Shown: one piece after another, positions 42,757 through 46,734 of the stretch
How positions within the stretch are numbered: position 1 is the stretch's first letter
How the letters are laid out: each line of letters opens with the position of its first letter
Source of the DNA: Oxalobacteraceae bacterium
GTDB lineage: Bacteria > Pseudomonadota > Gammaproteobacteria > Burkholderiales > Burkholderiaceae_D
DNA: 64,000 nt
Direction: 5' to 3'
NCBI GenBank assembly: GCA_010024875.1
Contig: RGFZ01000001.1
Location: forward strand, 1 to 64,000
The notes under the pieces: generated by a model
Told to the model about the DNA's origin: nothing
The model's input: only the letters and a program-made list of their open reading frames with translations
Database searches by the model: none
Position numbers and translations under genes: made by a program

Positions 42757-43523
42757 CACGGCCTTTGCTGAGGATCTCAGGTGCATCGAAACGCTTCGGT
42801 GGCCTGCAAGCCCTGCACGAGGTGAACTTGAGCATAGCGCGTGGGCAGATCTATGGGCTGATCGGGCCCAATGGTGCTGGCAAAACCACGATGTTCAACG
42901 TGAGCACCGGCCTATATCAGGCGGACACGGGAAGCTTCGAACTCGACGGTAAACCCTATGCGCATGGCGCTCCGCATGAAGTCGCCCGTGCCGGTATCGC
43001 GCGCACGTTCCAGAATATCCGCTTGTTCGCTGACATGAGCGCGGCCGAAAATGTAATGGTCGGTCGACACATGCGCACGCATCAGGGGGTGCTAGGCGCT
43101 ATATTGCGCCATCGCGCGGCGCGCGAGGAAGAAGCGGAGATTGCCAAGCGCGCGATGGAGCTGCTGGAATTCGTGGGCATAGCTCATCTTTCAGCGCGTA
43201 CGGCGCGACACTTGTCCTACGGTGATCAGCGTCGCGTCGAGATTGCGCGCGCGCTGGCGACCGAGCCCTTGTTGCTGGCGCTGGACGAGCCTGCGGCCGG
43301 CATGAATGCGACTGAAAAATCCGCACTGCGCGATCTGTTGCTGAAGATACGCGCTCAGGGCATCACCATTCTTCTGATCGAGCATGACGTGAAGCTGATG
43401 ATGGGATTGTGCGATCGTCTGACCGTGCTTGATTATGGCAAGGTGATTGCCGAGGGAACACCCGCCGAGGTACAGAAAGATCCGGCAGTGATTGCCGCTT
43501 ATCTCGGAGGTGAGGCTGCATGA
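42753..43523 (+). CDS. livG: LivG-type ABC ATPase (second transporter)
   Basis: 256-residue ATPase with all motifs: Walker A GPNGAGKTTMFN near residue 37, Q-loop ARTFQNIRLFADM, signature LSYGDQRRVEIARAL near 160 and Walker B LLALDEPAAGMN. GTG start overlapping livM (GTGA). It is a useful internal comparison for the broken livG at 10.5 kb, which lacks the signature block. Confidence 0.94.
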   Translation: MTRPLLRISGASKRFGGLQALHEVNLSIARGQIYGLIGPNGAGKTTMFNVSTGLYQADTGSFELDGKPYAHGAPHEVARAGIARTFQNIRLFADMSAAENVMVGRHMRTHQGVLGAILRHRAAREEEAEIAKRAMELLEFVGIAHLSARTARHLSYGDQRRVEIARALATEPLLLALDEPAAGMNATEKSALRDLLLKIRAQGITILLIEHDVKLMMGLCDRLTVLDYGKVIAEGTPAEVQKDPAVIAAYLGGEAA

Positions 43524-44251
43524 TGGCGCCGGAAAACAGCTTGTTGAGTCTGCGAGGACTCTCGGTATCCTTCGGCGGGATTGAAGCCGTGAAGCTCATC
43601 GACCTCGATGTCAATTCAGGTGAACTGGTCACTCTGGTCGGTGCCAATGGCGCCGGGAAAACGACGACCCTGAAAGCGATTACCGGCACCTTGCCATCCG
43701 CTCGTACGTCGGGTCAGATCAGTTATCAGGGCAAGCGCATTGACCATCAGCCAGCGCATGAGCTGCTGCCGCAAGGGCTGGCCATGGTTCCCGAGGGCAG
43801 GGGCGTATTCAGCCGGATGACGATACGCGAAAACCTGCTGATGGGATCTTACGTCCGTGACGATCAAGAGGCGATCGAAGCGGATATTGAGCACTGGTTC
43901 GGCGTTTTTCCTCGCCTGAGAGAGCGCGCATCCCAGCTTGCCGGCACTCTCTCGGGTGGCGAACAGCAAATGCTGGCTATTGCCCGTGCGCTGATGTCCA
44001 AGCCCAGATTGTTACTTCTAGATGAGCCATCGATGGGGCTCGCACCTATCATGGTCCAAAAGATCTTTGAAGTGATTCAGCAGATAGCGTCAGAGGGCGT
44101 GACGATCCTGCTCGTAGAACAAAATGTCAGGCAAGCTTTATCAGTGGCGACGCGCGCTTATGTGATGGAAAGCGGCCGTATCGTGTTAAGCGATACGGCC
44201 GCCAATCTGATGCAGGATGCGCGGGTGACGGAGGCTTATCTCGGCGGTTGA
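43520..44251 (+). CDS. livF: LivF-type ABC ATPase (second transporter)
   Basis: 243-residue ATPase with normal Walker A GANGAGKTTTLKAI near residue 38, signature LSGGEQQMLAIARAL near 150 and Walker B LLLLDEPSMGLAP. It overlaps livG by ATGA. Its last 16 bases overlap the convergent OTU-like gene on the other strand. Confidence 0.94.
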   Translation: MMAPENSLLSLRGLSVSFGGIEAVKLIDLDVNSGELVTLVGANGAGKTTTLKAITGTLPSARTSGQISYQGKRIDHQPAHELLPQGLAMVPEGRGVFSRMTIRENLLMGSYVRDDQEAIEADIEHWFGVFPRLRERASQLAGTLSGGEQQMLAIARALMSKPRLLLLDEPSMGLAPIMVQKIFEVIQQIASEGVTILLVEQNVRQALSVATRAYVMESGRIVLSDTAANLMQDARVTEAYLGG

Positions 44252-44997
44252 GATGGGGTCTGACTGGCGGCTGCGATCTCTTTGGGTATCACGGCCTCAT
44301 AGTGGCCGCCCTGATCGAAAATGATCGCCATCCGGGGGCCATCGCCAACTTTTCTCCACGCTGGCTGACCTGCGAGATCAGCGGTCGCGATCCAGAATGT
44401 CAATTTCCTCTGTTGGTTGAGGATAGAATCGTTGATCTCTTTGACCAGATGATTCATGAATTTTCCATCGCTGAATAACGAATAGTCATTCATTGAGGCT
44501 GTATTCGGGTGAGTCTTTTTGGTGTAATCTTTTGCCATTTTCCTGAGCGAGCTAACTTGGTCAAAATGCTCGGTATCATAATTTTCAGCGGCATGCTGTG
44601 CCATGGAAATCAGTAGACAATTCTCATCTTTTCCAGAGTTGTGAACGACTTGAAATCCGTGATGGTCGAACCAAGAAGCTAATTGCTGATTGATTTGTCG
44701 GCTGGCTTCGTAGTGACTTTCGCTCGGCGTGATGGTGGTTGAAGCAAGCCCCTCGCTGCCGACGTCCGTACTTTCCTGCCATGATGAATCAGCAGGGGAA
44801 AGATCGGAGTTCGCAGCGCGTGCCCGACCCGCTCGGCTTTCTTCAGCCAGGCTGGCGAGTATGGCTTCCGCGAGCGCGCGGTCATCCGCTTGTTGCAAAC
44901 TTTTTTCATCCTCGGTCAGCAAGGCTTGGTGCTGTTCCTTGGTAATAAAGTCTGCCATGTTCTTGTTAATAAACCAGTTGGCTGATTGCGGACGCAT
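44236..44997 (-). CDS. Putative OTU-like cysteine protease with ubiquitin-interacting-motif-like helix
   Basis: No firm family match from memory; what follows is pattern reading. The 253-residue product has near residues 38-52 the segment DDRALAEAILASLAE, which fits the UIM consensus (acidic, Leu-xx-Ala-xxx-Ser-xx-acidic). A Ser-rich linker leads to GKDENCLLISMAQHAA (Asp124, Cys127), resembling the OTU D-G-N-C catalytic loop. Near the end GGHYEAVIP (His232-Tyr233) resembles the OTU histidine. GAGGA lies before the ATG at 44997. G+C is about 41% over 44461-44640 (73 of 180 counted), well below its neighbours, hinting at transfer. A host-directed deubiquitinase effector is the leading idea. Confidence 0.6.
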   Translation of the reverse strand: MRPQSANWFINKNMADFITKEQHQALLTEDEKSLQQADDRALAEAILASLAEESRAGRARAANSDLSPADSSWQESTDVGSEGLASTTITPSESHYEASRQINQQLASWFDHHGFQVVHNSGKDENCLLISMAQHAAENYDTEHFDQVSSLRKMAKDYTKKTHPNTASMNDYSLFSDGKFMNHLVKEINDSILNQQRKLTFWIATADLAGQPAWRKVGDGPRMAIIFDQGGHYEAVIPKEIAAASQTPSQPPR

Positions 44998-45185
44998 AAT
45001 TTCCTCGTATAAAGTAAATGACTGAACTTAGGTCTCCAGCCATCCATGAGGGTTCCTGCGCCGTTCAATTTTTTTTCATGGATCAGCTAGTGCGCTAACT
45101 GAACCGGTGTTGGGAGAGGGACTCGGGCAGGGTGCTGCCGGACAGTGAATTGCGTATCCGGCAGCGGCTCAGCCAAGAGGAGGTC

Positions 45186-46040
45186 TTATTTCGCCTTTTT
45201 GTAACGCAAGACTTTCTGATGCTGTTCACCCAGCCCCTGAATACCGAGAGCGATTTCATCACCTGGCGCCAGGAAGCGCTGAGGCTTCATGCCCATGCCC
45301 ACGCCGGGAGGAGTACCGGTGGCGATCACATCGCCTGGCATCAGGGTCATGAAACGGCTCAGGTAGCTGACAATTTTGGCCACTGAGAAAATCATGGTCT
45401 TGGTATTGCCAGTTTGCATGCGCTCGCCATTGATGTTCAGCCACATGTCGAGCTTTTGTACGTTCGGAATCTCATCGCGAGTGACCAGCCATGGGCCGAC
45501 CGGGCCGAAGGTATCGCAGCCCTTGCCCTTGTCCCATTGCGGGCCGCGCTCCAGTTGGAATTCCCGTTCCGACAAATCATTGACCACCGCATAACCGGCG
45601 ACATAATCGAGTGCCTGGCGCTCGCTCACGTACTGCGCCTTGCTGCCGATGATGATTCCCAACTCCACCTCCCAATCTGATTTGACCGAGTCTTTGGGCA
45701 GCATCACGTCGTCGTTCGGGCCATTCAATGCGGTGATGGCTTTCATGAACACGATGGGTTCTGCAGGTATCGGCATGTTCGACTCTGCGGCATGATCCGA
45801 GTAGTTCAGACCGATACAGATGAATTTGCCAATACCAGTGATCGGCACGCCAAAACGCGGTTTCCCGCGCACCAGTGGTAGACGATCCGCTTTGATTTTT
45901 GACAGCTTGGTCAGAAACTTTGGAGACAATTCATGCGGTCCGATGTCTTCCACGACGCCGGACAAGTCGCGCAGCTTGCCCTCGGCATCGATCATTCCGG
46001 GTTTTTCGTGGCCAAGGCGGCCATAACGTACCAGCTTCAT
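45186..46040 (-). CDS. Fumarylacetoacetate hydrolase family protein
   Basis: 284-residue FAH-family hydrolase or isomerase with N-terminal MKLVRYGRLGHEKPGMID and the catalytic core FICIGLNYSDHAAESNMP near residue 72, the metal ligands in SDWEVELGIIIG near 118 and GDVIATGTPPGVGMGMKPQRFL near 235. Members include 2,4-diketo-3-deoxy-fuconate hydrolase, ureidoglycolate lyase and hydroxyheptadiene-dioate isomerase; specificity is not decidable. AAGGA precedes the Met codon at 46040; the longer frame is not supported. Confidence 0.88.
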   Translation of the reverse strand: MKLVRYGRLGHEKPGMIDAEGKLRDLSGVVEDIGPHELSPKFLTKLSKIKADRLPLVRGKPRFGVPITGIGKFICIGLNYSDHAAESNMPIPAEPIVFMKAITALNGPNDDVMLPKDSVKSDWEVELGIIIGSKAQYVSERQALDYVAGYAVVNDLSEREFQLERGPQWDKGKGCDTFGPVGPWLVTRDEIPNVQKLDMWLNINGERMQTGNTKTMIFSVAKIVSYLSRFMTLMPGDVIATGTPPGVGMGMKPQRFLAPGDEIALGIQGLGEQHQKVLRYKKAK

Positions 46041-46242
46041 ATTTTTCCTTTTTTGTTGGTATTCCGGTCGGCAAAGTTGTGTCGCAGTGGTTTGTATTGC
46101 AGTAACGCTAGGCCGAATTATGCCTTGCTTCGGCGTAAAGCCGGGATGCCGTGTAGCGGTGTCCCGGACGACGATCTTGGGCGCCATGAAATATGATATG
46201 TTGTCGTAAAGAAATTTCTCCCAACCCACCAAGAGGTCAGTT

Positions 46243-46734
46243 ATGTTGGTTAAGCCCCGTTTTGTCATGCCCGCACTGGGTTTAGCCGCCATGCTGGCGG
46301 TGGCGCCTAGCTTGTCCGCTCAGAGTGACAAAGATTTTCAGATCACCCTTCCCGAGAACATTGTCTGGAAAGAGGCCGGTCATGGCGTGAAGATCGCCGT
46401 GGTGTACGGTGACCCGTCGAAACCCGGGCAATATGTGATTCGCGCGCACTTCCCGCCAGGCGTCATGAGCTCGCCACATTTTCATGGCGAAGACCGCCAC
46501 GTAACGGTGATTCAGGGCACGTGGAATGCAGGCAAGGATGACAGTTGGGATCCCGCTGCCACGGTACCGCTGAAGACAGGTAGCTACATGTTCCATCCGG
46601 CGGGAGGCGTTCATTACGATGGATCGGCAGGTGCTGAAGGTGCGATCGTGCAGATCGTTGGCATGGGTCCTAGCAAGACGACCTTCCTTTATCCGAAGGA
46701 AGGCGACTTTGGCAAGCCGAGGAAGCTGAACTGA
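46243..46734 (+). CDS. Secreted cupin domain protein
   Basis: 163-residue protein with a signal peptide (LGLAAMLAVAPSLSAQ) and a single cupin: PPGVMSSPHFHGEDRHVTVIQGTW near residue 72 with two metal-type histidines and a third in MFHPAGGVHYDG near 125. Periplasmic location expected; function unknown. It overlaps the next gene by one base (TGATG), so the pair is translated together. Confidence 0.85.
   Translation: MLVKPRFVMPALGLAAMLAVAPSLSAQSDKDFQITLPENIVWKEAGHGVKIAVVYGDPSKPGQYVIRAHFPPGVMSSPHFHGEDRHVTVIQGTWNAGKDDSWDPAATVPLKTGSYMFHPAGGVHYDGSAGAEGAIVQIVGMGPSKTTFLYPKEGDFGKPRKLN

Follow-up and report, generated by a model that had tools for sequence, protein, structure and literature searches.

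On the minus strand of contig RGFZ01000001.1 from an Oxalobacteraceae bacterium (assembly GCA_010024875.1), a gene encodes a protein of 253 residues that is probably a ubiquitin-cleaving, papain-like cysteine protease of the ovarian tumour (OTU) type, carrying one or two ubiquitin-interacting motifs (UIMs) and acting on the proteins of a eukaryotic partner; we put the probability of this reading at about 0.7. The gene lies within positions 1-64,000 of the contig, a stretch of 64,000 nucleotides referred to here as the window. The central idea, a UIM helix combined with an OTU-like Cys/His site, had been put forward in an original prediction made from the sequence alone, and it survived the examination of conservation, a search with the UIM profile and the comparison of a low-confidence fold model. 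The features of the protein are located as follows:

44236..44997, minus strand: gene for the UIM and OTU-like protein, 253 amino acids, ATG start (open reading frame, carriers in the genus, and dN/dS, the ratio of nonsynonymous to synonymous substitution rates)
44842..44886, minus strand: UIM core, residues 38-52, with D38, D39, L42, A45, S49 and E52 (conservation in the genus, Pfam UIM in relatives)
44275..44721, minus strand: OTU-like catalytic domain, residues ~93-241 (low-confidence model aligned to OTU structures, alignment A3)
44617..44619, minus strand: Cys127, the likely nucleophile (conservation)
44302..44304, minus strand: His232, the likely general base (conservation)
44296..44298, minus strand: Glu234, the likely third member of the triad (conservation; OTU acid at His+2 in the available text of PMC7396840)

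According to this reading, C127, H232 and E234 would form the triad of an OTU-type protease that removes or trims ubiquitin on the proteins of the eukaryotic partner. UIMs contact a ubiquitin unit at the Ile44 face, and the N-terminal UIM helix, present once in the window protein and in two strict copies in five relatives, is predicted to hold ubiquitin in this way. Such a grip would lead the enzyme to prefer ubiquitylated proteins or chains and to remain on them. To reach its target, the protein would have to be exported from the bacterial cell.

The protein was searched against 194 related genomes, and family profiles were run against 21 genomes of the genus, 392 of the family and 399 of the order. 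Besides the source genome, 11 genomes of the genus gave clear matches (E <= 4.9e-21); 36 of the 194 genomes had a match at E <= 1, mostly weak beyond the clear ones. By profile search, and with the source genome counted, 12 of the 21 genus genomes carry the gene, among them Oxalobacteraceae bacterium AM_0228 (L021), and the members share 28-53% identity with the window protein. The order-level sample gave matches at E <= 0.001 only in the source genome and in genome G014, while the family-level sample added nine genomes to the 12 carriers at E <= 0.01. Five of these nine (G729, G648, G618, G502 and G096) were taken as distant relatives and are included in alignment A3 (17 rows, the 12 rows of the genus alignment A2 and these five); G659 and G773 were dropped since the matches, to the N-terminal part in very long proteins, look like repeats, and G034 and G035 were left aside. 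A gene for a livF-type ABC ATPase, a label taken from the original prediction and the gene order, adjoins the family gene in all 11 carriers whose contig reaches that far (in G010 the contig ends first). The dN/dS values were 0.15-0.33 in eight pairs, compared with 0.04-0.16 for livF in six of those pairs; silent sites are close to saturation in the pair formed by the source genome and G019. Judged by its occurrence, its place beside livF and these values, the open reading frame is a real gene, and the dN/dS figures point to a protein that is constrained yet fast-evolving.

Residues 38-52 (DDRALAEAILASLAE) had been proposed to fit the UIM pattern. The pattern is indeed present, and L42, A45 and S49 are kept in all 11 genus members covering the site in A2, within an N-terminal part that is variable apart from this short block. 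The same pattern, which had been written to fit the window protein, was found in 9 of 20,000 shuffles of it, and a looser core (two acids in four residues, then [LIVM]xxAxxxS) in 920 of 20,000 shuffles and in one of the 62 other window reading frames scanned. Two copies of the strict core, with its acidic lead of at least two of four residues, occur in five of the 12 genus rows and at least one in 10, any copy being counted; L021 and L011 have too few acids. The low-confidence model places a helix at residues 31-63. With Pfam the outcome was divided, as eight of the 12 genus members match the UIM family PF02809 at E <= 1 (best 1e-5), whereas the window's own copy gave no PF02809 match among those listed at E <= 10. 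The family shares with PF02809 the acidic lead and the Leu-x-x-Ala-x-x-x-Ser core; it differs from the usual members in that the motif sits in a bacterial protein and in that the window copy falls short of the score needed for a listing. A search of the 21 genus genomes with the UIM profile at E <= 0.1 yielded six places in five genomes, two of them over the cut-off. By their coordinates all six fall within the window gene's family, an outcome that chance would hardly produce, although the source genome was not among the five and the Thermotoga maritima control also matched below the cut-off. A profile of the genus proteins gave only two weak matches in the PDB (E 2.3 and 2.8), to two UIM-bearing proteins, Vps27 and the AN1-type zinc finger protein 2B.

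In OTU proteases an Asn comes directly before the catalytic Cys and a hydrophobic residue directly after it (N-C-[LF]), and an Asp stands three residues ahead of the Cys (D-G-N-C). The predicted motifs were located as claimed, DENC at residues 124-127 and GGHYEAV at residues 230-236, and the spacing between C127 and H232, given as about 105 residues, is exactly 105. C127 and H232 are invariant among the 12 genus members; of the five distant relatives, four have the Cys and three the His. E234 occurs in 11 of 12 genus members, with Val in its place in G014, and in three of the five distant relatives. N126, the Asn ahead of the Cys, is found in 11 of 12 genus members. The triad order described for OTU enzymes in the available text of PMC7396840 is C...H-aromatic-D/N/E with the acid two residues past the His, and the window family follows it with C127...H232-[YF]-E234, the H232-[YF]233-E234 block being present in 11 of 12 genus members. 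Among the distant relatives, three have Cys, His and Glu together, G502 has only the Cys, with Ser for His, and G096 has none of the three; G502 keeps a UIM-like block. That the protein works like an OTU deubiquitinase is thus well supported by the residue pattern, and its membership in the OTU family is likely.

A structure predicted for the window protein had low confidence (predicted local distance difference test score, pLDDT, 44.7), but all 50 PDB entries listed in the comparison of this model were OTU domains; at low confidence, the fold therefore leans to OTU. Sequence searches of the PDB returned nothing significant, and the wider profile and the consensus found unrelated chains. NCBIfam gave only weak matches (best E 0.013, all far below the cut-off), as did PHROGs (best E 0.006 for a relative and 0.033 for the window protein).

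Several observations speak against the proposed function. The Asp124 of the original prediction is an Asp in only one of 12 genus members, the others having S, N, E or Q, so that the Asp of the D-G-N-C motif is missing from the family and Asp124 was rejected as a triad member; E234 appears the likelier acid. Of the residues on which the prediction had relied, C127, H232 and the L42, A45 and S49 of the UIM are therefore kept among the genus members, while Asp124 is not; a lack of conservation at Asp124 was among the outcomes that the prediction had named as refuting it. The OTU family PF02338 was the window protein's only Pfam match at E <= 10, at E 0.16 and a score of 12.9 against a curated cut-off of 23.3 bits. 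It was listed for no other of the 17 family members and did not match the family consensus, and in the genome search two control genomes also matched below the cut-off. As the score stays below the cut-off, we call the protein OTU-like. Finally, a tie to secretion systems, which the original prediction had suggested looking for, was not found in the source genome, where the secretin of the type III secretion system (T3SS) matched only below its cut-off and neither VirB4 nor the sheath gene (VipB) of the type VI secretion system (T6SS) was found; this survey of a draft, which can miss genes, used one marker per injection system and did not cover Dot/Icm-type type IV secretion systems, extracellular contractile systems or other routes.

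The protein might also be a ubiquitin-binding decoy or adaptor whose protease domain cuts little or no longer. Relatives in another genus have lost the site, as in G502, where Ser replaces His beside a UIM-like block, and in G096, which lacks both Cys and His, and in G014 Val replaces E234. However, C127 and H232 are kept in all genus members and in three of the five distant relatives, these three being of other architectures, and this explanation is rather unlikely for the window protein. It is improbable that the protein is a USP- or Josephin-like enzyme, a papain-like deubiquitinase outside the OTU class. The block CLLISLLQ around the Cys and the GHYxA motif resemble USP boxes, and ataxin-3 also combines a papain-like domain with UIMs. 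Gln stands at C+7 in 12 of 12 genus members, and G014 has GHYVAY. However, the Pfam listing for E <= 10 includes neither family, and A2 has no conserved acid beyond residue 235; the window protein thus has neither the Pfam match nor the acid after the His box that would mark USP (peptidase C19). Both classes are also absent from the 50 fold entries listed, which does not exclude them.

There is also a slim chance that the protein is a cysteine protease, transferase or deamidase with an intrabacterial role and a target other than ubiquitin, the UIM being another kind of helix contact. This would agree with the lack of the three injection markers in the source genome and in five of the 12 carriers, but the conserved N-terminal residues are precisely the UIM-specific L, A and S amid a variable part. 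Nor is a defence system indicated, as PADLOC gave two weak matches only among six proteins (E 0.022 and 0.034), and this candidate was rejected. That an ordinary small protein resembles both motifs by chance is barely credible. The window protein's low Pfam score and the weak NCBIfam matches would fit such a view, but the motif residues are conserved across members that share as little as 28-53% identity with it, and the UIM-profile places (six of six, over 21 genomes) fall within its family; together with the fold comparison, these results strongly disfavour chance.

The ubiquitin family PF00240 was found in none of the 21 genus genomes at E <= 0.01, other ubiquitin-like families not being searched, and the substrate therefore probably comes from outside. 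A protein built to bind and cut ubiquitin in a genus where ubiquitin was not found suggests action on the proteins of another organism, and we infer a link to a eukaryotic partner. Across the 21 genomes, the T3SS secretin was over the curated cut-off in four (G002, G007, G008 and G016), VirB4 in none, and the T6SS sheath was found in nine, indicating that injection systems vary within the genus. The T6SS sheath was present in seven of 12 carriers and two of nine non-carriers, which is not significant (Fisher p 0.18), and a co-occurrence of the gene with the T6SS was not retained; for the T3SS secretin over the cut-off the numbers were two of 12 and two of nine (p 1.0). Five carriers (G000, G010, G014, G015 and G019) lack all three markers, and on this basis a wider picture may be drawn, in which a UIM-guided OTU-like family, long selected at one site, would gain access to eukaryotic ubiquitin along a route not yet recognised, with ubiquitin-binding pseudo-enzymes and proteins of ~1,620 residues as part of a wider family. 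We regard this picture as possible but doubtful as a whole.

If the proposed function is correct, a genus related to Oxalobacteraceae would handle the ubiquitin of eukaryotes, which might be protists, fungi or other hosts. Profile-based annotation would miss the family because its score lies below the Pfam OTU cut-off. The relatives from other genera, three with an intact and two with a lost site, would provide a natural series for separating the roles of UIM and protease. In the literature searched, mostly by titles and the beginnings of abstracts, no bacterial OTU protein with a UIM was described, which is weak evidence of novelty, and nothing was returned for Oxalobacteraceae in combination with deubiquitinase.

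Many described bacterial OTU enzymes come from intracellular parasites and symbionts. OTUD1, a eukaryotic enzyme, has its UIM after the catalytic domain, whereas in the window protein the UIM lies before it. PtpB, also considered here, is mycobacterial. The eukaryotic Otu2, OTUD5 and OTUD1 (7pl7, 3pfy and 4bop) share 7-11% identity with the window protein. The bacterial OTU deubiquitinases in the available text of PMC7396840, many of them from intracellular parasites and symbionts, include BurkOTU, wMelOTU, ChlaOTU, ceg7 and ceg23; in contrast to these, the window protein scores below the Pfam OTU cut-off and has N-terminal UIMs, and that paper does not use the word UIM in its main text. SnOTU of Simkania negevensis (8cmr), as far as described in the available text of PMC10643670, has a membrane segment predicted after the domain and Leu in place of the acid, indicating that the OTU acid can be missing, whereas the window family keeps E234 and places its UIMs ahead of the domain. 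A bacterial UIM is therefore not without precedent, as a UIM-like region of the bacterial phosphatase PtpB is reported in the accessible part of PMC13199130 to bind host ubiquitin, which activates the enzyme; unlike the window protein as proposed, PtpB does not cleave ubiquitin. OtDUB of Orientia, too, is a deubiquitylase from a bacterium that has a region of its own for binding ubiquitin, but according to the available text of PMC7214410 the protease belongs to the CE clan (Ulp1-like) and the domain that binds ubiquitin is of another kind.

The distant relatives differ widely in length. The G729 and G648 proteins are ~1,620 residues long, with the family domain close to the C-terminus, and those of G618, G502 and G096 have 524, 252 and 273 residues, respectively. 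In genus g32, proteins of ~1,620 residues (L071:2921-7786 and L072:8045-12904) have the catalytic domain near the C-terminal end, where Cys, His and Glu are all preserved; neither Pfam nor NCBIfam showed a significant domain in them. Relatives in genus g15 (L073:6950-7708 and L059:8436-9257) have lost the active site and may be ubiquitin-binding pseudo-enzymes; one retains the Cys and the UIM-like block but has Ser in place of His, and the other has neither Cys nor His. In genus g40, proteins of ~2,400-2,700 residues (L075:3495-10784 and L076:1660-9639) consist of repeated TTxQIxAL-type units and resemble the family's N-terminal block only weakly, by way of the repeats.

The surroundings of the window gene comprise the following features:

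45003..45006, minus strand: Shine-Dalgarno-like GAGG, 5 bases ahead of the ATG (upstream sequence)
43520..44251, plus strand: livF-type ABC ATPase gene, convergent neighbour (open reading frame, Pfam ABC_tran)
45186..46292, minus strand: gene of the fumarylacetoacetate-hydrolase family on the other side (Pfam PF01557)

The gene and the end of livF lie on opposite strands and overlap, as had been predicted; the overlap measures 16 bases. On its other flank, a gene that from its start we take to be maleylacetoacetate-isomerase/GST-like (glutathione S-transferase) is found in nine carriers, the hydrolase gene follows directly in two (the source genome and G019), and neither is present in G014. 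In eight of the nine non-carriers livF was matched at E <= 1e-80; in these the GST-like or the hydrolase gene comes after livF, and the family profile detected nothing convincing in the 266 to 1,500 bases covered behind it. A tree built from the livF genes of 18 genomes, 10 of the 12 carriers and eight of the nine non-carriers, requires four changes of presence; only four of its 15 inner branches are well supported. Because the chromosomal site is fixed, one old gain with several losses seems the best reading of this tree. Distances between the proteins and between the livF genes are correlated (Mantel r 0.87, p 0.0001; Spearman 0.49; 10 of 12 carriers).

The gene had been described as having about 41% G+C against about 60% in its neighbours, but we measured 50.5% (54.3% at third codon positions), whereas livF has 56.6%, the hydrolase gene 53.7% and the window as a whole 57.1%; a drop to 39-42% is confined to codons 101-200. 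A recent transfer from a source of low G+C was rejected in view of the overall value, the common locus across the genus and a divergence that tracks livF. A phage origin was discarded, with no phage match at E <= 1 and none confirmed in viral contigs. A plasmid origin was likewise discarded, the only matches being four Streptomyces plasmid records at E 2-8, and the domain of a distant relative giving no plasmid match at E <= 1. A scan for promoters and terminators gave counts similar to those in shuffles and within their spread (2 versus 1.0, standard deviation 0.9; 0 versus 1.5). Read by eye, an element of the GGAG, GAGG or GGGG type precedes the aligned ATG in 10 of the 11 upstream regions inspected, the window copy included, G014 being the sole member without it. 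In the G013 copy (L008, about 1380-2205), an in-frame stop separates the two UIMs and leaves an N-terminal UIM piece and a piece with UIM plus protease. The G010 copy (L011 1246-1926) has 36.7% G+C, compared with 45-54% in the other copies.
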